From Acidobacteriota bacterium (GTDB lineage Bacteria > Acidobacteriota > Aminicenantia > Aminicenantales > Saccharicenantaceae): a stretch of DNA of 64,000 bases. Positions 2,729-36,020 of the stretch are shown here, in pieces; within the stretch, counting starts at the first letter, position 1, and each line of letters begins with the position of its first letter. The notes under the pieces were generated by a model that did no database searches, had not been told where the DNA came from, and saw nothing but the letters and a program-made list of their open reading frames with translations. Location: the NCBI GenBank assembly GCA_039683095.1, contig JBDKSB010000011.1, positions 62,001-126,000 on the forward strand, in the 5' to 3' direction. A program made the position numbers and the translations under genes.

Positions 2729-3733
2729 ATGGACAAGATCAAGCTCGAGAAGTTCCCTGGCGCCAAGCCGGCCTATCAGCAGATCATCTCCTTCTTCGAG
2801 AAGGAGATCCAGTCGGGCCGGCTGAAACCAGGCGAGAAACTCCCTGCCGAGCGCGACCTGGCCCAGGAGATCCACACCGCCCGCGGCACGGTCAAGAAGG
2901 CCTACGAGGAGCTCGTCCGGCGCCGGCTCATCGAAGCCGCGCCCGGCCGCGGCAGCTTCGTCGCCCCTGACCGCCATGCCCCGGCCGAGAGCCGCAAGGA
3001 CAAGGCCCTGCGCCTGATCGACGAGGTCATCGACGAGATGGCCCGTCTCAAGTTCAACGCCAACGACATGCGCATCTTCTTCGATCTCCGCCTGCTCGGC
3101 CGCGAGGAAGAGCTCCAGAACCTGAACGTGGCCGCCGTCGACTGCAACCCCGAGGCCCTGTCCATCTTCGAGCGCCAGCTCCTCATCATCCCCCATGTCA
3201 ACCTGGCCAAGATGCTTATCGACGACGTCCTCGTGGACCCGGCCGGCACGGACCGGCTGCGCAGCTTCGACCTCATCCTGACGACCACGACTCACTACCA
3301 GGAGCTCCTGGAGCGCTTCCCCGAGCTCCGGCCCAAGCTTGTCCAGGCCGCGGTGGCCCCGACCCGCGCCTCCATCATCGCCCTGGCCCGCCTGGCCCCG
3401 TCGCAGAAGATCGGGGTCGTCTGCGAGTCCAAGCGCTTCCTCGACATCGTCCTGGACCATCTCCGGGCCTTCGATATCCCGGCCGGGTCAGTGGCCCCGC
3501 TGTTCTGGTCCGAGCTCGACCGGCTGGACAAGTTCCTGGCCGGCCTCGACGCCGTCATCATCCCGGCCGGCTATTCGCTCCAGAAGAGCCGGGAACACCT
3601 GGCCGCCATCCAGGAGTTCACGGAGCGCGGCGGCTCCATCGTCACCTTCGACTACCAGATCGAGCGCGGCTCGCTCCTCAACGTCGAGGAGCGGCTGCGG
3701 ACGCTCCTCGACGAAGCCCGGCGGGGACTCTGA
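2729..3733 (+). CDS. GntR-family transcriptional regulator of the glutamate mutase operon
   Basis: A winged helix-turn-helix DNA-binding domain of the GntR type occupies about residues 14-80, with the characteristic PGEKLPAERDLA and GRGSFV motifs. The remaining ~250 residues form a domain I cannot assign; it is neither the small YtrA tail nor an aminotransferase fold and may bind an effector. The protein has 334 residues. An AAGGAG ribosome site precedes the ATG. The stop overlaps the start of glmS by one base (TGATG), so it is the first gene of the glutamate-fermentation operon and its likely local regulator. A candidate effector is glutamate or methylaspartate, which is inference. Confidence 0.85.
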   Translation: MDKIKLEKFPGAKPAYQQIISFFEKEIQSGRLKPGEKLPAERDLAQEIHTARGTVKKAYEELVRRRLIEAAPGRGSFVAPDRHAPAESRKDKALRLIDEVIDEMARLKFNANDMRIFFDLRLLGREEELQNLNVAAVDCNPEALSIFERQLLIIPHVNLAKMLIDDVLVDPAGTDRLRSFDLILTTTTHYQELLERFPELRPKLVQAAVAPTRASIIALARLAPSQKIGVVCESKRFLDIVLDHLRAFDIPAGSVAPLFWSELDRLDKFLAGLDAVIIPAGYSLQKSREHLAAIQEFTERGGSIVTFDYQIERGSLLNVEERLRTLLDEARRGL

Positions 3734-4155
3734 TGGACGCCCCGCGGATCGTGCTGGGCGTCATCGGGGCCGACTGCCACTCGGTCGGCAACAAGATCCT
3801 CGACGCCTACTTCACCGAGGCCGGCTTCCACGTCGTCAACCTCGGCGTCATGGTCAGCCAGGACGAGTTCCTCGACGCCGCCGTCGAATCCAACGCCGAC
3901 GCCATTCTCGTCTCGTCGCTCTACGGCCACGGCCTGATCGACTGCGAGGGCCTGCGCCAGAAGGCCGACGAGCGCGGCCTCGACCGGATCCTGCTCTACG
4001 TCGGCGGCAACCTGGTCGTCGGCAAGACCCCGTACGACGAGGTCGAGCGGAAATTCAGGGCCATGGGCTTCGACCGCGTCTTCTCGCCCCGGGTCGACCT
4101 GGCGGCCGTGGCCGTGATGCTCCGGAAGGACATCGAGGAGAGGAAGAAGGGCTGA
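3733..4155 (+). CDS. glmS: Glutamate mutase sigma subunit (cobalamin-binding)
   Basis: Small subunit of adenosylcobalamin-dependent glutamate mutase (methylaspartate mutase), which interconverts L-glutamate and (2S,3S)-3-methylaspartate. At 140 residues it is the usual length. The base-off/His-on cobalamin motif DxHxxG is present as D14, H16 and G19, the same numbering as the clostridial enzyme. SSLYGH and the glycine pair in YVGGN, which line the nucleotide-tail pocket, are also present. It overlaps its neighbours by one base at each end, so translation is probably coupled. Methylmalonyl-CoA mutase B12 domains share the fold, but length and context favour glutamate mutase. Confidence 0.95.
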   Translation: MDAPRIVLGVIGADCHSVGNKILDAYFTEAGFHVVNLGVMVSQDEFLDAAVESNADAILVSSLYGHGLIDCEGLRQKADERGLDRILLYVGGNLVVGKTPYDEVERKFRAMGFDRVFSPRVDLAAVAVMLRKDIEERKKG

Positions 4156-5576
4156 TGAACGGAAAGCCGCTCCTCTCGGTCGACATCGGGTCGACCTATA
4201 CGAAGGGAGGACTGTTCTTCCTGGACGGGGAGGAGCTGCGCTGCGCCGGCCGCGAGATCGTGCCGACCACCGTCGCCGACCTGGCCCGGGCCTTCTTCCG
4301 GGTCCGCGAGGCCGTCCTGTCCGGCCCCGGCCGCGGCGCCGCGGCCGCCGATATCCCGGTCTACTGGTCCTCGTCGGCCCGGGGCGGGCTCAAGATCGCC
4401 GCGGTCGGGCTGACCCCCGACCTGACCCTCTCGGTCGCCCGCATGGCCGCCACCTCGGCCGGCGGCAAGGTCGTCCGGGCCTTCTCCTACGAGCTGGACG
4501 ACGAGGACCTGGCCGGCCTGCGGGCCGTCGAGCCGGACATCATCCTGTTCACCGGCGGCACGGACGGCGGCAACTCCCGCGTCGTCCTCCACAACGCCGC
4601 CCGCCTGGCCGAGCTGGCCCCGCCCGCGGTCATCCTCTACGCCGGCAACCGCAAGGTCCGCGACCAGGTCGCCGACCTCCTCCGCGGCCGCGACGTCGAG
4701 ACGGCCGCCAACGTCATGCCCGAGGTCGGGACCATCGATATCGAGCCGGCCCGCGACGTCATCCGCCGCATCTTCCTCGAGCGCATCGTCGACGGCAAGG
4801 GCCTGTCGTCGGTCGTCGAGGCGGCCGGCCGCGAGCCCCTGCCGACGCCGCTGGCCGTCTTCGAGCTGGTCCGGACGATCGCCGCCCGCGTCCCGGGCTG
4901 GGAGGATTTCGCCCTGATCGACATGGGCGGGGCGACGACCGACTTCTACTCGCACACCAAGGCCTTCCACGGGGGCGACTCGGTCATCCTGCGCGGCCTG
5001 CTCGAGCCCACGCTCAAGCGCACGGTCGAAGGCGACCTGGGCCTGCGGGTCTCGGCCGAGGCCCTTTGGCGCTCCGAATCGGCCTTCCTCGAGGCGCGCC
5101 TGCGGGCCGCCGGGACGGACCCGAAGGAGCTCCGGCGCTACGTCGAGGAGGTCAGCCGGCAGACCGAATACCTGCCCGGCGACGAGTCCGGGAAGGCCTT
5201 CGACCGCCTGCTCGCCGCCGCCTGCGTTCGGGCCGCGTCGCTCCGCCACGCCGGCATCCTGCAGCGCGTCTACACGCCCCAGGGCGGCTTCCAGGTCCAG
5301 AGGGGCAAGGACCTGCGCCTGGTCCGGCGCCTCGTCGGCTCGGGCGGCTACCTGGCCGGCGAGACCGACGCGGCCGTCCTGCTCGAGGCCTGCCCCAAGG
5401 ACGCCGACGACGTCGACACCAGGCATCTCGTCCCCGAGGCGCCGGACTGCTACGCCGACGCCGAATATCTAATCCCCCTCCTGGGGAACCTGGCGGCGGA
5501 CTTCCCCGGCGCGGCCGCCCGCGCCGCCGTCGCCGGGCTGAGGCCGCTTGCGCCGCACGCCGATCGAAGAGGATAA
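4155..5576 (+). CDS. mutL: Glutamate mutase accessory protein MutL
   Basis: A 473-residue ASKHA-fold ATPase of the MutL/GlmL family (unrelated to mismatch-repair MutL), encoded between the two mutase subunits in clostridial operons. It is thought to help maintain or reactivate the B12 enzyme. The N-terminal phosphate-binding loop is SVDIGSTYTKGG (residues ~8-19). A second one, LIDMGGATTDFY, lies in the C-terminal half. The start is the ATG that overlaps the glmS stop. A longer same-frame reading begins upstream but would run through glmS. Family assignment is firm; the biochemical role is taken from homologues. Confidence 0.92.
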   Translation: MNGKPLLSVDIGSTYTKGGLFFLDGEELRCAGREIVPTTVADLARAFFRVREAVLSGPGRGAAAADIPVYWSSSARGGLKIAAVGLTPDLTLSVARMAATSAGGKVVRAFSYELDDEDLAGLRAVEPDIILFTGGTDGGNSRVVLHNAARLAELAPPAVILYAGNRKVRDQVADLLRGRDVETAANVMPEVGTIDIEPARDVIRRIFLERIVDGKGLSSVVEAAGREPLPTPLAVFELVRTIAARVPGWEDFALIDMGGATTDFYSHTKAFHGGDSVILRGLLEPTLKRTVEGDLGLRVSAEALWRSESAFLEARLRAAGTDPKELRRYVEEVSRQTEYLPGDESGKAFDRLLAAACVRAASLRHAGILQRVYTPQGGFQVQRGKDLRLVRRLVGSGGYLAGETDAAVLLEACPKDADDVDTRHLVPEAPDCYADAEYLIPLLGNLAADFPGAAARAAVAGLRPLAPHADRRG

Positions 5577-5578
5577 CC

Positions 5579-7030
5579 ATGAGATCTCATCGCCTGCCCT
5601 GGAAGGACTTCCTGGCCCAGCGCCAGGCCGTCCTCGAGACGTGGCCGACCGGCAAGGACGTCGCCGCGATCGAGGACGGGCTGCGCTACCAGCGCACGAT
5701 CCCGGAAGAGAAAAATTTCGCCAAGGCCATGGCCAAGGCCAAGGCCTCGGCCCGGACCCTGATCCAGCCCCGGGCGGGCGTGGCCATGATCGACGACCAC
5801 ATCCGCCTGCTCCGCTACCTGGAGACGGAAGGGACGGCCGACCTCCTGCCGACGACCATCGACGCCTACACCCGCCAGAACCGCTACGAGGAGGCCGCCC
5901 GCGGCATCGAGAAGTCCCGGGCCGCCGGGGCCTCGCTCCTCAACGGCTTCCCGGCCGTCAACCACGGCCGCGACGGCTGCCGCAAGGTCACCGAGGCCGT
6001 CACCAGGCCGGTCCAGGTCCGCCACGGCACGCCCGACGCGCGCCTGCTGGCCGAGATCTCGCTGGCCGGCGGCTTCACCTCCTTCGAGGGCGGCGGCATC
6101 TCCTACAACATCCCTTACGCCAAGAAGGTCGAGGTCGGCAGGAGCCTGCGCGACTGGCAGTACGTCGACCGCCTGGCCGGCTACTTCCAGGAGAACGGGG
6201 TGACCATCAACCGCGAGCCCTTCGGCCCCCTGACCGGGACGCTGGTCCCGCCCTTCATCTCCCACGCGATCGCCATCCTCGAGGGCCTGCTGGCGCTAGA
6301 GCAGGGCGTCCAGTCGCTGACCCTGGGCTACGGGCAGGGCGGCAACATGATCCAGGACATGGCCGCCCTGGCCTCGCTCCGCGAGCTGGCCGACGAGTAT
6401 TTCCACCGGGCCGGCTACGCCGACTACGACCTGACCCTGGTCTTCCACCAGTGGATGGGCGGCTTCCCGGAGGACGAGGCCAAGGCCTTCTCGGTCATCA
6501 GCCTCGGCGCGTTCGTGGCCGCCGCGGCCGGGGTCGAGAAGACCATCGTCAAGTCGCCCCACGAGGCCATGGGCATCCCGACGAAGGAAGCCAACGCGGC
6601 CGGGCTCAAGGCCACCCGCCAGGTCCTGAGCATGATGGCCGACCAGACGATCTGCCCGGAAGCGGCGGTCATCCAGCGGGAGAAGGACCTCATCCGCCGC
6701 GAGGTCGGGGCCGTCATGGCGGCCGTGCTCGACGCCGCGGGCGACGACCTCGTCCAGGGCATCGTCCGCGCCTTCGCCGGCGGGCTCCTCGACGTCCCGT
6801 TCGCCCCGTCGATCTACAACAAGGGCAAGATCCTGCCCATCCGCGACAACGAAGGATACATCCGTCTCTTTGCCAAGGGGAACCTGCCCCTCGGCGAGGA
6901 CATCATGTCGTTCCACCGGGAGCGCCTCCGGGAACGGTCCAAGGCCGAGGGGCGCCCGGTCACCTTCCAGATGGTGACCGACGACATCTACGCCATCAGC
7001 AAAGGAAAACTCATCGGGAGGCCCAAATGA
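5579..7030 (+). CDS. glmE: Glutamate mutase epsilon subunit (methylaspartate mutase subunit E)
   Basis: Catalytic TIM-barrel subunit of glutamate mutase. The 483-residue length matches the clostridial enzyme exactly. The substrate-binding arginine claw is visible as R65, R99 and R148, one position below the clostridial R66/R100/R149. E170 and Y180 match the conserved E171 and Y181. The gene begins two bases after the mutL stop behind a GAGGA ribosome site and overlaps mal by four bases (ATGA). With all three mutase components adjacent and key residues kept, the enzyme should be functional if adenosylcobalamin is available. Confidence 0.96.
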   Translation: MRSHRLPWKDFLAQRQAVLETWPTGKDVAAIEDGLRYQRTIPEEKNFAKAMAKAKASARTLIQPRAGVAMIDDHIRLLRYLETEGTADLLPTTIDAYTRQNRYEEAARGIEKSRAAGASLLNGFPAVNHGRDGCRKVTEAVTRPVQVRHGTPDARLLAEISLAGGFTSFEGGGISYNIPYAKKVEVGRSLRDWQYVDRLAGYFQENGVTINREPFGPLTGTLVPPFISHAIAILEGLLALEQGVQSLTLGYGQGGNMIQDMAALASLRELADEYFHRAGYADYDLTLVFHQWMGGFPEDEAKAFSVISLGAFVAAAAGVEKTIVKSPHEAMGIPTKEANAAGLKATRQVLSMMADQTICPEAAVIQREKDLIRREVGAVMAAVLDAAGDDLVQGIVRAFAGGLLDVPFAPSIYNKGKILPIRDNEGYIRLFAKGNLPLGEDIMSFHRERLRERSKAEGRPVTFQMVTDDIYAISKGKLIGRPK

Positions 7031-17796: not shown

Positions 17797-17866
17797 GGGG
17801 GAGTGGCGGGAAGGTGTGGGAGTCGAACCCATCCGGGACGTCTATAGCCCCATACCGGATTCGAAG
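17797..17866 (-). repeat. Distal attachment-site copy: displaced 3' end of selC
   Basis: This 70-bp block matches the 3' part of the intact tRNA-Sec gene (20937-21006) at 67 positions; all three differences are transitions. It covers the encoded CCA, acceptor 3' strand, T arm, variable arm and anticodon stem-loop, then loses similarity. The 5' half of a tRNA is absent and the anticodon is altered, so it is not a second tRNA. It is the expected att scar where an element integrated at the anticodon loop of selC. Confidence 0.85.
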
Positions 17867-17930
17867 ACCCGAGAAGATCATGGCCAAGTTATTGAATTAT
17901 TATGGTGATACCCAGTTTTCCCGAGATCAA

Positions 17931-17951
17931 TGTGGCTAAATTGTGGCCAAG
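17931..17951 (+). repeat. Left copy of 21-bp element-end repeat (possible integrase arm site)
   Basis: A 21-bp sequence of the form TRTGRCYAAATT followed by RTGRCCAAG. It matches 20814-20834 at 16 positions, and all differences are transitions. It lies about 65 bp inside the left end of the selC element, and a further TGGCCAAG sits at 17881. Paired repeats inside both ends suit integrase arm-type binding sites; this is inferred. Confidence 0.45.
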
Positions 17952-18004
17952 TCGATGAAATCCGACGCCTTTCGCAACGACGCCAATTTCCAGTTCTCTG
18001 CGAA

Positions 18005-18637
18005 TTAGTCTGTGTAATAGATTATGACGAAATCATCGATAACCGGAATCCAGATCGCGCATCTCCCATAGCTAATAGGATTGACATCAAGGTCAATACC
18101 GACGACCCTTCCTTTCTCCATATCGAGCTTAAGCTTATCGACAATCTTCTGGGCTTCGGACAACGTGGCCTTTCCGGTATTGACGATCATCTTCCTTAAG
18201 TCAACATATGTCGTACAAGGATAAGGCGATTTCCCGCTCATCTGGTCCGAGGTATCCTGATTAAATGGGCGTAGGAAGGTTCTTAGGATGCCGCTAAAAT
18301 ACCATTCTCTCTTACATGATTCATAATTATTACAGTCTGACTGGTACCAGGGCTGGCTGAAAAGTCCGTCAGATGCCGCGTCCCCTTTTACGGTCATGTA
18401 GAAGATCCTCTTTCTTCTTGACAAAACCTCAAGAGTCCAAGAAAAGGGACTCTTAATATCCTTCCCAACCACATGAAGGACAATCTCCTCAGGCCTGCCG
18501 TCGCGAGTAAGGTCGACCTTCCGGACGATCGTCCTATCGATCCTTTCTGAAGCCTGATTCTGAATGGCGTTTGTCTGCGCCACTGAAGTTGCCATTCCCA
18601 CTGAAATGAGGAGCACTCCGGGCAGCGCAGCTCTCAT
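18005..18637 (-). CDS. Hypothetical exported protein (island gene)
   Basis: A 210-residue protein with a signal peptide (~1-20, ending near SVAQT). I do not recognise the family. It holds a VDLTRDGRPEEIVLHV segment of the kind seen in repeat-type beta domains that track a Ca-binding-like DxxxDG pattern, and four Cys in the middle. AGGAGAG precedes the ATG. Codon use is AT-richer than in chromosomal neighbours, consistent with transfer on the selC element. Confidence 0.65.
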   Translation of the reverse strand: MRAALPGVLLISVGMATSVAQTNAIQNQASERIDRTIVRKVDLTRDGRPEEIVLHVVGKDIKSPFSWTLEVLSRRKRIFYMTVKGDAASDGLFSQPWYQSDCNNYESCKREWYFSGILRTFLRPFNQDTSDQMSGKSPYPCTTYVDLRKMIVNTGKATLSEAQKIVDKLKLDMEKGRVVGIDLDVNPISYGRCAIWIPVIDDFVIIYYTD

Positions 18638-18687
18638 AAGGCTCTCTCCTGGGTTATGCGTTGACTAAAAGAAGACGAAGTCTTCAA

Positions 18688-19185
18688 CTACTCGCCACAC
18701 TCAAAGGGAATTGTTTTCGTAAGCGTTCCGATATCAACCTTTGATGCTGACATATTTTCCAGCGCAGCTGTGATCTTGACTTCCTCACGGCCTGTACCGC
18801 AGACCAAGAAGGGCAATATCACCTTGCCACCCTCATTAAAACAAAGGCTGAGCTCAAGCTTTTGGTCTAGAAGCGTTTTCTGGCTATCCGTCGCTATCAG
18901 GCTGAGCCTGCCCTCGCATTGAGTGAATCCAGGGCCGACTAGATCCACGAGCACCATTATCGCAGACGAAGGCTCCCTGGCTTCCCCCTCGCCAATGATG
19001 GTATTCCACAAAACATGGGTTTTGCCATCGAGAAGGTCGATTGGGTTGATCTTGCCTGTCGCATGGTAATAGAGATGTGCGTGAATGGCGGCCACCGAGT
19101 ATTTCCCGCCTTCTTGATTGGGATTGCCAGGGGCAGTTATGCCGAGAAGGAGCACAAATGCTAGAAGACCAATAGATATTTTCAT
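18688..19185 (-). CDS. Hypothetical exported protein (island gene)
   Basis: A 165-residue protein with an N-terminal signal (~1-19) and a mature part of no family I recognise. The ATG chosen has GGAG 9 nt upstream; an in-frame ATG five codons earlier is possible. Composition is AT-rich like the rest of the island, and it runs in the same direction as its neighbours with short gaps. Confidence 0.6.
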   Translation of the reverse strand: MKISIGLLAFVLLLGITAPGNPNQEGGKYSVAAIHAHLYYHATGKINPIDLLDGKTHVLWNTIIGEGEAREPSSAIMVLVDLVGPGFTQCEGRLSLIATDSQKTLLDQKLELSLCFNEGGKVILPFLVCGTGREEVKITAALENMSASKVDIGTLTKTIPFECGE

Positions 19186-19255
19186 TGCATAGTGCTCCAC
19201 TCTACGCTTTAGTGTTCTTTGCGAACCCCCACTCGACGTATCGCTTTGCTAGGTT

Positions 19256-19792
19256 TCATTTCTTTGCTTTTCCGCCTAGCCAGGAAAATGAGCGGATTAA
19301 TGATAAAAAGTCCTTCTCATACTTTGAGCTCTCTTCTTTCGGCCCATTTAGGACGAGAACCAAATAGAGAGGGGAATCCTCGTCAGGGTCGAGAAAACAG
19401 ACATAGTCAGTCGTTTTATCATCATATGAATATACCTTGGACAGGACCTTATAAGCCGGATCGTTTATAGGGAATTCATTTAGCTCGAGTTTCTTGTGCT
19501 GCTTTTTATAGTCTGCGACGTCAGAGTCCATCTTCTGCTGCAGAGTCTCTCCTCTTTTGCTATTTACCGAAATGTGCATAACAACTGGCGATTTGCGGAA
19601 GCTCTTTTTCCCCAAGCAGAAATAGACATTGACGCGATACCGATATGCATCTTCCGTATGGCCTGTCCAGCCCGTTGGTTCCTTTACATTGAACATCCAA
19701 CCATTCCCAAAAATAAGCAACTCGTCCATTTGTGAAGAACCTGCTGTCACGGCAAGAAAGAAGATTATGATGGACCAAAGGCCTTTTTTCAT
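19256..19792 (-). CDS. Hypothetical exported protein (island gene)
   Basis: A 178-residue protein with a clear signal peptide (MKKGLWSIIIFFLAVTAGSS) and a strong GGAGGAGG ribosome site. The mature region is lysine-rich and ends in an amphipathic FLSLIRSFSW helix, a layout seen in small lipid- or cell-envelope-associated proteins. No family is recognised. It starts 11 bp after the end of the recombinase fragment. Confidence 0.65.
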   Translation of the reverse strand: MKKGLWSIIIFFLAVTAGSSQMDELLIFGNGWMFNVKEPTGWTGHTEDAYRYRVNVYFCLGKKSFRKSPVVMHISVNSKRGETLQQKMDSDVADYKKQHKKLELNEFPINDPAYKVLSKVYSYDDKTTDYVCFLDPDEDSPLYLVLVLNGPKEESSKYEKDFLSLIRSFSWLGGKAKK

Positions 19793-19803
19793 TGATCCTC
19801 CTC

Positions 19804-19998
19804 CTATGACGCAGGCTGTGTAGTTTCGCTATTGGGATGACTGGGCCCGTCGATACCAGGCACAAAGAGCTCAGCAAGTACTTCGACCGCCCGGCGCTTA
19901 TTTTCAGGTGTCGGATGAGCATAGCGCATGGTCATTTTGATAGTCGCATGCCCTAGAATCTCCTTGACAGTTACTAAGTCGATCCCACCTATGACCAT
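19804..19998 (-). pseudogene. Tyrosine recombinase/integrase C-terminal remnant
   Basis: About 64 codons matching the end of a phage-type integrase: VIGGIDLVTVKEILGHATIK followed by the nucleophile segment MTMRYAH and the usual C-terminal helix. The LGH histidine region and catalytic tyrosine remain. The upstream arginine box and whole N-terminal part are gone; the frame meets a stop five codons before the first ATG, which is the stop of the adjacent gene. The fragment is therefore a deletion remnant of the enzyme that inserted the selC element. Confidence 0.8.
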
Positions 19999-20010
19999 AT
20001 AGGTAGCCGC

Positions 20011-20640
20011 TCACATTATGGGTGGATCAGTTTTCAGGGATGAGGTCCATAACTTCCCCAAAGGGATCTTACCTGAAGGAGAGGACGGGGGGGGTTCTGT
20101 GGCCACAATCCTGATGTATTTCACGATATCGTCAAATGTCTTTTTGTCTGAACGCTTATAGAACGGCTTGAGGATTCGAATTACTGCCCAATAGCCGCGA
20201 TAAGATAGGTAATAATTAAGGAACTTTGACACGACAACTTCCCCGCTAGTGGTCCTAAATAAAGGGTCCTTAATTACGATCTCTTTTATTGCTGCATCTC
20301 CGACCTCATATTGTTTGATGTCTGCTTTAAGGCGTAAATTCTCCTTCTTCGCATAATATTCTCTAAGAGCTTTTGAGTCTCCTTCGCTGGTAGCTTTTTC
20401 CAGCTCGGCCGTAATGCCAAAGTCCGTTTTGCCGTCTCGTAGTTCGAGAAAACTCTCGCTTTCGAGTTTCTTATTCGACGAGAATTGGGGTGATACCCGT
20501 ATCTCAACCCCCCATGAGCTACCCGGAAGGACAAGTCTATAGGTCTTCAGTTCATTTGGCCTTTCTTGTGAGGCTTTGACTCCATCAGGATAGCTAGATA
20601 ATGCAACAGCGATCAGAGCGTAGAAAAAGACCTTCTTCAT
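20011..20640 (-). CDS. Hypothetical exported protein (island gene)
   Basis: A 209-residue protein with a signal peptide (MKKVFFYALIAVALSSYPDG) and a mature domain not recognised by me. The ATG used follows GAGGGTGAG; an upstream in-frame ATG would add 16 hydrophilic residues. Its last codons abut the broken recombinase, so its 3' end may have been created by the deletion that removed the integrase N terminus. AT-rich island composition. Confidence 0.6.
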   Translation of the reverse strand: MKKVFFYALIAVALSSYPDGVKASQERPNELKTYRLVLPGSSWGVEIRVSPQFSSNKKLESESFLELRDGKTDFGITAELEKATSEGDSKALREYYAKKENLRLKADIKQYEVGDAAIKEIVIKDPLFRTTSGEVVVSKFLNYYLSYRGYWAVIRILKPFYKRSDKKTFDDIVKYIRIVATEPPPSSPSGKIPLGKLWTSSLKTDPPIM

Positions 20641-20943
20641 ATTCTCACCCTCTCTGAGTACATTTATGCGATTGAAATTATTCTCCACATGCTGGACGCC
20701 TCAGTCAATGATGATCATAGTCACGAATCATTCCTATCCTAAGGCTTTTTGCGTATGGTAACTTGATTGACAGGCTCTTAATCAAATGCGTTAGAAAAGA
20801 TACCTAAAATCACTATGACCAAATTATGACCAAGAATGTCCAAAACGGTGCTAAATCGTACTAGTGCGTACTAAACAATTAGCAAATAATTACAGAACCG
20901 ATGGACTTCCTAAAGCACTGATAAATATCTCTAATAGGGGGAG
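20641..20943. other. AT-rich non-coding end of the selC element
   Basis: I see no gene here. The stretch holds the right copy of the 21-bp repeat, a short duplicated CGTACTA motif (GTACTAGTGCGTACTAA), and the junction to the 3' end of selC. It probably contains the integrase-binding region of the original attachment site. Confidence 0.5.
20814..20834 (+). repeat. Right copy of 21-bp element-end repeat
   Basis: Partner of the sequence at 17931-17951, in the same orientation and differing only by transitions. It lies about 100 bp inside the right end of the selC element. Internally it is itself two copies of ATGACCAA 10 bp apart, a roughly helical spacing that would suit a protein-binding array. 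Confidence 0.45.
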
Positions 20944-21038
20944 TGGCGGGAAGGTGTGGGAGTCGAACCCACCCGGGACGTTTATAGCCCCATACCGGAT
21001 TTGAAGTCCGGAAGGATCACCGGATCCTTCACCCTCCC
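20944..21038 (-). tRNA. selC: tRNA-Sec (anticodon TCA)
   Basis: A 95-nt gene, the same length as E. coli selC, with encoded CCA. It has an 8-bp acceptor stem (GGGAGGGT paired with ACCTTCCC, one G-U), a long variable arm, T loop GGTTCGACTCC, and anticodon loop CTTCAAA with TCA at 21002-21004. The elongated acceptor and D arms are those of selenocysteine tRNA. Its 3' part is the copy brought in by the integrated element. selA, selD and selB are ~10 kb away. Confidence 0.95.
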
Positions 21039-30847: not shown

Positions 30848-32773
30848 TCAGGGCCGCTTGGCCGGGACGTGCCGGTCCTCGACGCGTCGCGTGTAGCCGG
30901 CCCGGTCGAAGTGCTCGAGGATGGCTTGGGCGTACTTGCGGGACAGGTCCAGACGGTCGCGGAGCTCGGCGATGGTGACGCTGCCGCGGCGTTCGATCAG
31001 GCCGGCGACCGCGGCCCGGGCCGCCTCGAGCGCCTCCCGGTGATAGACCACCTTGGGCGCCAGGCGGACGAGATCCCCGGAGCGAAGGAGGGAGTTCAGG
31101 ACACGGTTGAAGGCCGACGGGTTCAGGCCGAGCCGGGTCCGTACCTCCTCCTCGGGCGGGGCGGAGAAGCGGGCCGCTCTGTAGGCGCCTTCGATCCGGG
31201 CCCGGAGCGCGGCCTCGACCGGGTCGGTCCGGGCCTCGCGGCCGGCCAGGCCGATCTCCGCGCCCTGGCGGACGAGAACGCCGCCGGCGACGAGGGAGTC
31301 GAGGACGAGCTTGAGCGTGGCCGCGTCGCCCGTCTGGAGGAAAGCCGCCCTCAGGTCCGAATAGGGCATGGCCGGGCGGGAGGGGTTCTTCTCGAAATAG
31401 CCGCGGACCGCGGCCGCGAGCCCGTCGGCGAGGCGGTCGAAGGACGACTTGTGGAGGAAGCGGACGGGAGCTTCGCCGGGCAGGGCGACCAGCCGGCCTT
31501 CGGCGGCGAGGGCGGCGACGGCCTCGGCGACCTCGGGCTCGGCCCGGCCGAGCTTGAGGGCGATATCGGCGGCGGCGCATGGCCGGGCGCCCGCCTGGAC
31601 GAACATCTGGTCCACGGCCTCGCGGGACGTTCCGCCCAGCTTCTCGAGGCCCTCGAGGACGCTGCCGCTGAAGCGCTTGTGCTTCTCCGGCGCGGCGTCC
31701 AGGACCTGGCCGCCGCCGATCGTCACGACGGGGGAGAAGGACCGGATGACGAAGCGGTCGCCGGGCAGGGCGACGGTCGGGCGCTCGAGGACGAGCTGGA
31801 CGGGGGCCGACGCGCCCGGGGCGATCGTCCGGCCGCCGATGACGGCCAGGCGGGCCATGACCTCGTCCGTGCCGACATGGAGGCGGACCCGGTCGCGGTG
31901 CTTGATCTCGCGCGGCGCATCCGGCAGGACGTCGAGGCGGGCGTCGAGGCGCGAGGTCGGCGCCAGCGAGCCGACGGCGGCGGCCAGCTGGCCGCGGCGC
32001 AGGTCCTCCTTGGCGAGATCCTGGAGGTTGAGCGCGGTGCGGCGGCCGAGGCCCGAGCAGTCGGCCTTCGAGCCGTGGACCTGGACGCCGCGGACGCGCG
32101 TCTCGAGCCCCTCGGGATAGACGGCGATGCGGTCGCCGGCACCGACCGTCCCGCCGAGGATGGTCCCGGCCACGACCGTGCCGAAGCCGTGGACCGTGAA
32201 GACGCGGTCGATGGGCATGCGGAAGATGCCGTTGTCGGGGCGCGGCGGGACGCGGCCGCCGATGGCCTGGAGGGCGGCCTTCAGCCCGGCGACGCCCGCG
32301 CCGGTCAGCGCCGAGACCGGCAGGATGGGGGCCTCGGCCAGGAACGAGCCGGCGACGAAGGCGCGGACCGCGGCGGTCACCTCGGCCAGCCGGGCCTCGT
32401 CGACGAGATCGCACTTGGTCAGGGCGACGAGGCCGAGCCTGACGTCGAGGAGCCGGAGGATGTCGAAGTGCTCGCGGGTCTGGACGGCGATGCCCTCGTC
32501 GGCGGCCACCACGAGGAGGGCGGCGTCGATGTGGCTGGCGCCGGCGGCCATGGTCTTGACGAACTTCTCGTGGCCGGGGACGTCGATGAAGACGATCTGC
32601 TTCGGGTAGGCCGGGTCGTCGAGGAAGACGAAGCCGAGCTCGATGGTCATGCCCCGGGCCTTCTCCTCGGGCAGGGTGTCGGGGTCGATCCCGGTCAGGG
32701 CCTTGACCAGGGCGCTCTTGCCATGGTCGATGTGGCCGGCGGTGCCGATGATGACGTGGTCGAGGCCGGGCAT
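30848..32773 (-). CDS. selB: Selenocysteine-specific elongation factor SelB
   Basis: A 641-residue translation GTPase that delivers Sec-tRNA to UGA codons marked by a SECIS hairpin. G motifs: [11 protein letters not shown] (~residue 10), DVPGHE (~65) and TKCD (~119). EF-Tu-like beta domains follow, and the C-terminal ~250 residues form the winged-helix SECIS-binding region. It starts two bases after the selD stop. With selA, selD and selC it completes a functional Sec system. Confidence 0.96.
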
Positions 32774-32775
32774 GA

Positions 32776-34038
32776 TCAGGCCGAAAGGACGATGCGGGCC
32801 GGGCCCTTGCGGACGACGCGGCCGATGACCGCGGCGGCGGGGGCGCCGCCGGCGCGGAGGGCGGCGACGAGGGCCGCGGCCCGGGACTTGCGGACGGCGA
32901 TGAGCAGGCCGCCGGAGGTCTGGGGATCGTAGAGCAGCGTCTCGAGGTCTTCGCCGGGCCGGTTGGCGCCCCCGGCCCGCCGGACGAAGCGGCCGGCGTA
33001 CTCGCGGTTGCGCTCGACCGCGCCGGAGACGACGCCGTCGCGGATGAGGTCGAGGACGCCGGGGAAGACGGGGATGGCCGAGGCGTCGACGGCGATCTCG
33101 ACGCCGCTCTGGGCGGCCATCTCGGCCAGGTGGCCGGCCAGGCCGAAGCCGGTGATGTCGGTGGCCGTGGTGACGCCGAACCCGGGCATCAGCTCGGCGG
33201 CGGCCCGGTTGAGGGCGCGCATGGACAGCTCGGCGGCGGCCAGGCCGTCGGCCGGGGCCCGGCCGATCTGGCGGGCGAAGCTCAGCGTGCCCGTGCCGAT
33301 GGGCTTGGTCAGGACGAGGATGTCGCCGGGACGGGCCTTGGCGTTGACGGTCATGCGCCGGGGATCGACGACGCCGGTCACGGCGAAGCCGAGCTTGATC
33401 TCGCGGTCCTTGAGGCTGTGGCCGCCGAGGAGGACCACGCCGGCCTCGCGCAGCTTGGCCACGCCGCCCTGGAGCATGCGGTTCATGATCCGGGGCGAGA
33501 GCGTCTCGACGGGGAAGGCCATGATCGAGAGCGCGGTCAGGGGCCGGCCGCCCATGGCGTAGATGTCGCTGACCGAGTTGGCCGCGGCGATCTCGCCGAA
33601 GGCGTAGGGATCGTCGACGACGGGCGTGAAGACGTCGACGGACTGGACGAGGGCGGTGCGGGGCGTGAGCCGGTAGACGCCGGCGTCGTCGCAGGTCTCG
33701 GAGGAGACGAGGACGCGCGGGTCGCAGAGGCGCGGCAGGCCGGACAGGGCCCGCTTGAGGTCCTCCTGGCCGATCTTCGAGGCGCAGCCGGCGTTCTCGA
33801 CCAGGGTGGTCAGGGCGACGTCGCCGGGGGCGTCCTCCAGGCGCTCGCCGGCGCAGAGGCAGACGTTGCGCCGCTTGAAGAGATCGCAGGGGCAGGGGTC
33901 TTTGGGATTGCAGATGCAGTGGCCGAGCCGGATGGACCGGGCCATGATCCGCTTCCGCCGGGCGAAGAAGCGCGACTGCCGCCGCGGCGGCTCGCCGGCG
34001 GGGGACCGGCCCCCGGCCGCTTCGCCGCGCTTGCTCAT
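32776..34038 (-). CDS. selD: Selenophosphate synthetase SelD with N-terminal Cys-rich module
   Basis: Makes monoselenophosphate from selenide and ATP. The catalytic core begins near residue 72 with active-site Cys85 and Lys88 (NAGCASKIG); this SelD therefore uses Cys, not Sec. The glycine-rich [11 protein letters not shown] lies further on. The first ~70 residues are unusual: six Cys in CxC-x5-CxC-x8-CxC (C41-C62), resembling the iron-sulfur/redox motifs of ferredoxin-thioredoxin reductase. The start overlaps the selA stop (ATGA) and has GGGAGG upstream; an internal ATG (residue 32) would still keep the Cys module. Confidence 0.94.
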
Positions 34039-35435
34039 TTCAGGGCCTCCCGGATGGCCCGTTCGACGATCTCCTCCTCGCCCGGCTGGATCGTCCGGAG
34101 ATCGAACAGGACGGCATCCTTGTGGATGCGGGCGAAGACGGCCGGCGCGCCGAAGCGGAGGCGGCGGGCCAGCTCCTCGGGGGCGACGGCATTCGAGCGC
34201 ACGGCCAGGACTTTAGACGGCAGCGTTTCGGCCGGGACCGCGCCGCTGCCGACCTCCGAGGCGCCGTCCTCGACGGCCAGCCCGGCCGAAGCGGGGAGGG
34301 CCCGGCGGAGCGAGTCGGCCAGCTTCGCGGCCCTGCGGCCCAGCTCGTCGGGCGTCAGGGCGAGCATCCGGTAGATGGGATGGGCCTCTTCGAGCTTGTC
34401 GGGGGCGAGGAAGAGCTTGAGCGTGGCCTCGAGCGCGGCCAGAGTGAGCTTGCCGCAGCGGAAGGCCCGGGCCAGGGGGTTCTTGCGGATCCGGGCGATA
34501 CAGGCGCTCTTGCCGGCGATGAGCCCGCTCTGGGGGCCGCCGATGAGCTTGTCACCGCTGAAGCAGACGACGTCGGCGCCGGCCGCGATGCTGGCCTGGA
34601 CGAGGGGTTCGGCGGCCAGGCCGTAGCGGGCCAGGTCGACGAAAGCGCCGCTGCCGAGATCGTCGACGACCGGGACGCCGCGGGCCCGCCCGAGCGCGGC
34701 GAGGTCCTCGATCGGCGGCTCCCCGGCGAAGCCGACGATGCGGTAATTGCTGTGGTGGACGCGCAGGATGGCGCCGGTGGACTCGCCGATGGCCGCCTCG
34801 TAATCGGCCAGGTGGGTCTTGTTTGTGGCGCCGACCTCGCGGAGGACGGCCCCGCTCATGGCCATGACCTCGGGCATGCGGAAGGAGCCGCCGATCTCGA
34901 CGAGCTGGCCGCGGGAGACGATGACCTCTTTGCCGCGGGCGAGGGTGTTGAGGATGAGGACGGTCGCGGCGGCGTTGTTGTTGGCGACGGTCGCGGCCTC
35001 GGCCCCGGCCAGCTCGCGCAGGAGCCCCTCGACGTGCCGGTCGCGGGGCACGCGCTTGCCCGAGTCGAGGTCGAGGGCCAGGGTCGAGTAGCCGGAGGCG
35101 ACCGCGGCCAGGGCCCGGCCCGCGGCCGCGGGCAGGACGGCCCGGCCGAGACCGGAATGCATGATGACGCCCGTGGCGTTGACCGCCGGGGCGAGCGAGG
35201 GGGAGAACATGCGCTCGAGCCGGGCCAGGAGGCGTTCGGCCAGGGCCGCGGCGGAGACGTCGGGGTCGGCTGCGGCCGCGATCGCGCGCCGGACGGAGCC
35301 GAGCTCGTCGCGGGCCGCGGCCACGACGGCCTCGCGGCCGAAGCGGTCGAGGAGCGGGACGGCGGCGGGGTCGGCGATCAGGGCGTCGAGGGAGGGGATG
35401 CGGCGGAAGGCCGTGTTCCTGTTCGCGTCCGTCAT
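34035..35435 (-). CDS. selA: L-seryl-tRNA(Sec) selenium transferase SelA
   Basis: A 466-residue PLP enzyme that converts Ser-tRNA(Sec) to Sec-tRNA(Sec) using selenophosphate. PLP-binding Lys296 sits in FSGDKLIGGPQSG. The N-terminal tRNA-binding domain (~1-75) and NATGVIMHSGLGRA are typical of full-length bacterial SelA. It is followed with overlap by selD and selB and preceded at 21 nt by a DsbD-alpha-like gene that appears to head the operon. Confidence 0.97.
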   Translation of the reverse strand: MTDANRNTAFRRIPSLDALIADPAAVPLLDRFGREAVVAAARDELGSVRRAIAAAADPDVSAAALAERLLARLERMFSPSLAPAVNATGVIMHSGLGRAVLPAAAGRALAAVASGYSTLALDLDSGKRVPRDRHVEGLLRELAGAEAATVANNNAAATVLILNTLARGKEVIVSRGQLVEIGGSFRMPEVMAMSGAVLREVGATNKTHLADYEAAIGESTGAILRVHHSNYRIVGFAGEPPIEDLAALGRARGVPVVDDLGSGAFVDLARYGLAAEPLVQASIAAGADVVCFSGDKLIGGPQSGLIAGKSACIARIRKNPLARAFRCGKLTLAALEATLKLFLAPDKLEEAHPIYRMLALTPDELGRRAAKLADSLRRALPASAGLAVEDGASEVGSGAVPAETLPSKVLAVRSNAVAPEELARRLRFGAPAVFARIHKDAVLFDLRTIQPGEEEIVERAIREALK

Positions 35436-35456: not shown

Positions 35457-36020
35457 CTATTTCGTGAGGGAGCTGAAGCGGAGCTTGTCGAAGATCTCGG
35501 GATGAAGGTCGGTGCCAGCGCCGGACGTCACGACCGGCACCGCGATCTCGAACGGCACTTCCCTCGGGGGCAGGCAGGAGGCGTCGTTGCAGGCCTGGTA
35601 GCTCAGCGCGCCCTTGAGCGTGCGCGGCCCCGCGGCCAGCCCGCTTTTGGCCTTGAGGAGCGCGCCCAGCACGACCTGACCCTCGTAAACGACGAGCTCG
35701 GCCTCCGAATAGGAGAAGCGGGCCCGCCGGCCCTTGGGATAGGCGATCTCGACGACCTCGAAGTCCGGGTTGTCGGCGATGGCCAGGGCGGTCGGGATCA
35801 TGAATTCGTCGAGCGGGGAGTTGTCGTTGATGTGGTAGCCCGCCTGGACGTTGAGGATGAGCGCGGCCTTGAAGGTCTCGCCGGGGCGCACGGCGTCCCG
35901 GGACAAGCAGCCCTTGACCTGGACGATCTGCGGTTCGTCCTGGGCCAGGACCCGGCCCGGCGAAAGGGTGAACGCTGCCGCCAAGACGAGCAAACCCACC
36001 GGGCTGAATCTCACGCGCAT
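35457..36020 (-). CDS. DsbD N-terminal-domain-like periplasmic protein
   Basis: A 187-residue exported protein with signal peptide (~1-26). Its immunoglobulin-like domain matches the alpha domain of DsbD: YQACNDASCLPP carries the exchange cysteines as C-x4-C, followed by REVPFEI. Alone, without the DsbD membrane part, it would pass reductant to periplasmic partners. A strong promoter lies just upstream and only 21 nt separate it from selA. Co-transcription with the selenium genes may reflect redox supply to selenoproteins, which is inference. Confidence 0.82.
   Translation of the reverse strand: MRVRFSPVGLLVLAAAFTLSPGRVLAQDEPQIVQVKGCLSRDAVRPGETFKAALILNVQAGYHINDNSPLDEFMIPTALAIADNPDFEVVEIAYPKGRRARFSYSEAELVVYEGQVVLGALLKAKSGLAAGPRTLKGALSYQACNDASCLPPREVPFEIAVPVVTSGAGTDLHPEIFDKLRFSSLTK

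Follow-up and report, generated by a model that had tools for sequence, protein, structure and literature searches.

The window analysed here, a 64-kb stretch of DNA from a member of the Aminicenantia, encodes a selenophosphate synthetase (SelD) of 420 aa (32776-34038, minus strand, from the translation) in which a complete catalytic core is preceded by a small module with six cysteines. Our preferred reading, held tentatively, is that this protein represents a distinct subfamily of SelD, probably of single origin, whose dedicated N-terminal module is a redox or Fe-S thiol centre similar to that of ferredoxin-thioredoxin reductase (FTR) and serves the active site.

The selD gene and its product

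The gene lies between selA and selB on one strand and shares a 4-base ATGA overlap with selA, and the order selA-selD-selB is kept in Aminicenantes loci long enough to show it. The relevant features are as follows.

34035-35435, minus strand: selA
33964-34038, minus strand: N-terminal residues 1-25 of SelD, without conservation; the ATG overlaps the selA stop (ATGA)
33844-33963, minus strand: six-cysteine module, residues 26-65, beginning with the conserved RRKRxMxRSIxLG helix (profile, model and codon comparison)
33853-33918, minus strand: CxC-x5-CxC-x8-CxC, residues C41-C62
33814-33843, minus strand: linker, residues 66-75, of lower model confidence (predicted structure)
32779-33813, minus strand: SelD catalytic core, residues 76-420 (TIGR00476, AIRS, AIRS_C)
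33775-33786, minus strand: active-site C85-x-x-K88
32776-34038, minus strand: selD as a whole, six-cysteine module and complete SelD core, 420 aa (translation, TIGR00476)
30848-32773, minus strand: selB (translation by eye; conserved neighbour in relatives)
20944-21038 (Rfam: 20948-21038), minus strand: tRNA-Sec

The identity of the core is certain, since residues 76-386 score 349.4 bits against the TIGR00476 equivalog model (cut-off 125) and the predicted fold matches that of Aquifex SelD (2yye_A; Z 45.3, rmsd 2.0 over 336 residues). The full-length model has a mean pLDDT of 92, and its core matches solved SelDs. A previous interpretation made from the letters alone (the sequence-only reading) had described a normal SelD core with Cys85 and Lys88 as active-site residues, which these results confirm; both residues are invariant among 53 aligned module SelDs. 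The cysteines of the protein are at positions 41, 43, 49, 51, 60, 62, 85, 105 and 116, and in the translation the first six form the pattern CxC-x5-CxC-x8-CxC over residues 41-62, ahead of C85/K88, exactly as that interpretation had it. The protein thus has the complete core, the Cys/Lys loop and the selA-selD-selB operon of ordinary SelD/SPS (TIGR00476; Aquifex 2yye, E. coli 3u0o), from which it differs by the 40-residue module added in front. Its active site contains cysteine (GCASK); an in-frame TGA is present instead in the majority of the other SelDs found in Acidobacteriota.

Some other features of the window were also recorded. Just upstream of selA and on the same strand, 35457-36020 encodes a secreted protein resembling, by eye, the N-terminal domain of DsbD, a possible redox link to the sel operon. 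An AT-rich island (17797-21012; about 43-52% GC vs 68%) lies between two direct repeats of 76 nt with 93% identity (17797-17872 and 20937-21012). The second repeat takes in the 3' portion of tRNA-Sec, and inside the island a C-terminal remnant that looks like an integrase was recognised by eye; this is an apparent integration into the tRNA-Sec gene. The translations of genes at 3733-7030 resemble, by eye, a B12-dependent methylaspartate mutase set (S, L and E subunits).

Conservation and translation of the module

Peptides of residues 32-102 were sought in one genome per species across 84,980 species, a scan for peptides close to the window sequence that would miss distant modules, and 42 loci at 62-90% identity were recovered, labelled Aminicenantes/Acidobacteria and Planctomycetota. 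The frames of these loci share a basic stretch, typically (E/A)(R/K)RKR(V/I)M, followed by RSIxLGHCIC, and are without conservation further upstream. Profile searches covering samples of Acidobacteriota and Planctomycetota gave 17 strong module matches in 396 genomes of the former and 12 in 294 genomes of the latter; the module may occur in other phyla as well. Within the window's class, the module is carried by each of the four sampled genomes with a SelD over cut-off. No stand-alone copies of the module were found in the Acidobacteriota and Planctomycetota genome samples searched, and weak profile matches considered as such (L091-L095, L120-L123) looked like unrelated frames or cysteine-rich stretches of other proteins.

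Loci gathered without a cysteine requirement have the exact six-cysteine spacing, followed by SelD, in 70 of 71 cases, and the sequence of the lone exception (L043) ends at an ambiguous base, marking an assembly break. Across a set of 61 sequences, all six cysteines together with M32, R34, S35, P50, G64 and E65 are invariant (61/61); this set was chosen by its cysteine pattern, and for the cysteines the figure free of that bias is 70/71. The codons of the invariant module residues vary synonymously wherever possible in these 61 sequences. This synonymous variation at invariant residues, together with the 70 intact loci, shows that the module is translated and under strong selection. A search of the window in its six frames finds the six-cysteine pattern a single time, and none of 20,000 shuffled versions of the window protein contains it; with the same 70 intact loci this means that the pattern is not a product of chance.

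These results bear on an annotation artefact, in which translation would begin after the cysteines or the extension would not be under selection. The sequence-only reading had itself named a start after residue 70, or a lack of conservation in close relatives, as possibilities, and had proposed looking for the extension in SelD homologues. The extension proved to be conserved in close and distant relatives, with 70 of 71 loci intact, and the conserved part (RRKRxMxRSIxLGHCIC...) begins at residue 27, ahead of the first CxC, and shows synonymous codon variation, so neither possibility was borne out. Only residues 1-25 or so are unconserved, which is the sole point in favour of an artefact; against the codon variation in 61 sequences and the intact loci we regard it as ruled out, with negligible probability. 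The earlier view that the module is unlike ordinary SelD therefore holds, and it is a real, conserved domain.

Phylogeny, distribution and comparison with known SelD fusions

A tree of the SelD core places 54 module SelDs on one side of a branch with support of 100/99, apart from Sec-type and long-N-terminus (Ndh-like) SelDs, which were sampled mainly from Acidobacteriota. The simplest reading of this tree, in which sampling outside these phyla is thin, is that the module SelDs probably have a single origin. They are found in Aminicenantia, in a small number of further Acidobacteriota and in Planctomycetota. Both phyla consist mostly of uncultured bacteria.

Most Planctomycetota members have a C-terminal AhpD/CMD domain with a CxxC site, as does L089/L168, which branches deeply within the family of the window. 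The window protein stops after the SelD core without an AhpD domain, its lineage keeping only the N-terminal module, and we infer that the domain was probably lost in this lineage. AhpD/CMD proteins (PF02627), including MduS and the ArsM-AhpD selenoproteins, are like this C-terminal domain in their CxxC site, but the Planctomycetota domain is fused to SelD. An additional cysteine-rich stretch occurs in L114, and likewise in L110 and L111, where CC motifs recur in the segment joining SelD to AhpD (e.g. SCCGDSHDSCCSQEEKTCCSD). One genome (G398/G085; L034, L102) carries a six-cysteine SelD with an active-site cysteine alongside a second, separately encoded SelD that contains Sec, and selA is present twice; these amount to two parallel selenium systems.

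Fusions of SelD to NADH dehydrogenase-like and to NifS-like proteins are described in passages of PMC2398784 and PMC4561486. The latter reports a systematic search for SelD extensions, the main-text passages of which mention neither a six-cysteine module nor Planctomycetes, and no six-cysteine SelD fusion was found in the SelD literature searched (open-licence full text, without supplements). The feature common to Ndh-SelD, NifS-SelD and the window protein would be an N-terminal redox or selenium-delivery domain on SelD. However, the six-cysteine domain is different and much smaller, and its carriers form a group in the tree separate from the four long-N-terminus (Ndh-like) fusions sampled. 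Neither a NADH dehydrogenase-like nor a cysteine-desulfurase N-terminal domain is present in the window SelD according to Pfam and NCBIfam.

Resemblance to ferredoxin-thioredoxin reductase

The module had been likened to the cluster/redox segment of FTR in the sequence-only reading, a comparison that holds for the last four cysteines and fails for the first spacing and at the level of family models. The C49-C62 spacing (CPC-x8-CLC in the window) is that of plant/cyanobacterial-type FTR, CPC-x8-CxC, as compared with the Synechocystis enzyme, whereas the first CxC lies 5 residues from the second pair in the module and about 14-16 residues in FTR. The structural model of the module has helices at 2-13 and 27-32 (add 25 for window residues) with pLDDT of about 90 (linker about 70), and the isolated module is modelled with pLDDT of 92-94 over its first 40 residues. 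The module alone returned five chains when compared with 350,542 PDB chains using Foldseek, all of them FTR catalytic chains (E 8-9, TM 0.30), although Foldseek also scores residue identity, so the shared CPC-x8-CxC motif makes part of this result. This pointer, taken from a model, has some weight because FTR had already been proposed beforehand, and it is not proof.

In comparisons by other methods, VIA-align with the module model returned no match at Z of 2 or more, hhalign of the module against 27 FTR sequences was not significant (probability 11.5, P = 0.0026), and PF02943 (FeThRed_B) matched neither the window protein nor any of 24 module sequences. The N-terminal 83 residues alone have no match in Pfam or NCBIfam, and the module has none in Pfam, NCBIfam or PDB sequence and profile searches. 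Membership of the FTR family by sequence was consequently rejected, given the unmatched PF02943, the empty Pfam, NCBIfam and PDB profile searches and the weak hhalign result. With the FTR catalytic chain (PF02943; 1dj7, 2pu9) the module has in common three CxC pairs, CPC-x8-CxC and, in the model, a helix before the first pair; it differs in the x5 first spacing, the unmatched family model and the lack of a significant profile or structural score. The resemblance is therefore real as a motif, with homology unproven because of the E value of about 8, the non-significant profile comparison and the unmatched family model. No FTR-family gene was found in the window's genome. In L124, from another genome of the same class, an FTR catalytic domain is joined on its C-terminal side to a rubredoxin-like part; the PDB sequence nearest to L124, 4tpu, likewise bears the name Rubredoxin.

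Genomic neighbourhood in relatives and use of the product

At many Planctomycetota loci (L013-L018, L020-L030, L032, L036, L037 and L042, with L019 excepted; some are cut by contig ends), module SelD is encoded behind a methyltransferase gene, three HGD-D genes and a gene for a BadF-type activase of the ATP-dependent type, in the conserved order methyltransferase-HgdB1(double-cubane reductase)-HgdB2-HgdB3-activase-SelD(six-Cys, AhpD). Of the HGD-D proteins, the first scores 426 bits with NF040772 (cut-off 350), the model for double-cubane anaerobic reductase, and a NapH-like ferredoxin gene is often found downstream of selD. Genes for double-cubane anaerobic reductase (NF040772) and activase (TIGR00241) are thus upstream of module SelD at most Planctomycetota loci examined; compared with double-cubane reductase systems, this operon adds two HgdB-like subunits and the methyltransferase. 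We consider it a candidate selenium reduction or assimilation operon. The third, distinctive HgdB-like subunit is present in 17 of 294 genomes overall and in 6 of the 12 module genomes (hypergeometric P = 1.1e-5, relatedness ignored), and SelD is present in 17/17 genomes with this subunit and in 31/45 without it (P = 0.006, relatedness again ignored). In-frame TGAs that had flagged hgdB3 as a possible selenoprotein gene were terminal stops where examined. In Slackia, an HgdB-like gene and an activase appear among the functional partners of selenium genes that are listed, without comment, in passages of PMC5322559 (Table 1).

In most Planctomycetota loci selD is not adjacent to selA or selB. 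Loci L168 and L167 are intermediate, with selA and selB near an HgdB-like gene, an activase and module SelD. In the window's genome the double-cubane gene is on a different contig from the sel operon and not adjacent to selD. Module SelD is instead found behind an NMT1-like (PF13379) substrate-binding gene in L038, L039 and L041, with ABC permease- and ATPase-like genes between the two in L039; these are possibly a selenium uptake system.

Among the 25 module genomes examined, selA is present in 24 and MnmH over cut-off in none, a gene content which indicates that the selenophosphate made by module SelDs serves selenocysteine. Selenouridine as a general use of the product is rejected on the same lack of MnmH over cut-off in these 25 genomes.

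Proposed function of the module and alternatives

In Synechocystis FTR, cysteines 1, 3, 4 and 5 ligate a [4Fe-4S] cluster and cysteines 2 and 6 form the active disulfide. In the predicted model of the window protein, the module opens with a short basic helix and continues with the three CxC pairs, which flank another short helix; a short linker then runs into the Cys85/Lys88 loop. By analogy with FTR we infer a redox function, a type of metal and a role for each cysteine: C41, C49, C51 and C60, mapped by their order, would hold an Fe-S cluster, and C43 and C62 would form a dithiol/disulfide. This dithiol could keep Cys85 reduced or, alternatively, could reduce cysteine-bound or zero-valent selenium to selenide during loading, in which case selenium would be reduced and handed over inside one polypeptide, ahead of phosphorylation. 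The FTR-like reading draws on the six invariant cysteines, the FTR spacing, the FTR chains returned by Foldseek (E about 8) and the redox partners of relatives, whose AhpD domain and reductase operon fit a redox role, and, by analogy, on the fact that known SelD fusions are likewise to redox or selenium-delivery proteins. Against it, the AhpD domain and the double-cubane neighbour are not universal, the window's lineage having neither beside selD, and three CxC pairs can equally bind zinc.

The main rival to this FTR-like reading is accordingly a structural zinc module, in which zinc held by four or all six cysteines would stabilise the N-terminal loop, the dimer or a docking surface, and no redox chemistry would be involved. 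Three CxC pairs are common zinc ligands too, and a small, cysteine-rich, helix-containing domain modelled with high confidence and with no significant score to any redox family would suit such a role; on the other hand, six invariant cysteines are two beyond the need of a single zinc, the nearest chains of known structure belong to FTR and not to zinc proteins, and relatives have thiol and low-potential redox partners, so we regard zinc as a serious but rather unlikely explanation. A metal-free selenium/sulfur shuttle appears doubtful to a greater degree. Its CxC pairs would accept selenium in the form of perselenide or selenotrisulfide for transfer to Cys85 and would act as an internal carrier that avoids free selenide, which would agree with the position of the module directly before the selenium-loading loop, with its conservation only together with SelD in the genomes searched and with the fusion of a NifS-like selenium-delivery enzyme to other SelDs described in passages of PMC4561486, but six invariant cysteines in a rigid FTR-like spacing exceed what a carrier needs. 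We think it very improbable that the module serves for docking or regulation, its basic helix and cysteine knuckle recruiting SelA, a reductase or tRNA or responding to the redox state while taking no direct part in the chemistry: the conserved basic RRKRxMxRS ahead of the cysteines and the overlap of selD with selA in the window speak for it, yet the module is equally conserved in Planctomycetota loci where selD is away from selA and selB.

The FTR-like reading can be extended, speculatively and with low probability, to an enzyme that both reduces and activates selenium on its own. In this version a minimal FTR-like Fe-S module (with AhpD in Planctomycetota) would take low-potential electrons, in Planctomycetota from the neighbouring ATP-driven double-cubane reductase, and reduce oxidised or zero-valent selenium on SelD, avoiding free selenide.

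Significance

The route by which selenium is brought to SelD inside the cell has yet to be settled (PMC13188914). The six-cysteine SelD adds a fusion type not found in the SelD literature searched, and a SelD with a built-in conserved cysteine centre, to which relatives add another thiol domain and an ATP-driven reductase operon next to the gene, makes the question of selenium delivery testable in one polypeptide and one operon. If true, self-contained selenium reduction and activation would be a dedicated route of selenium assimilation not described before. The module itself could help to show how toxic, scarce selenium is handed over to SelD.
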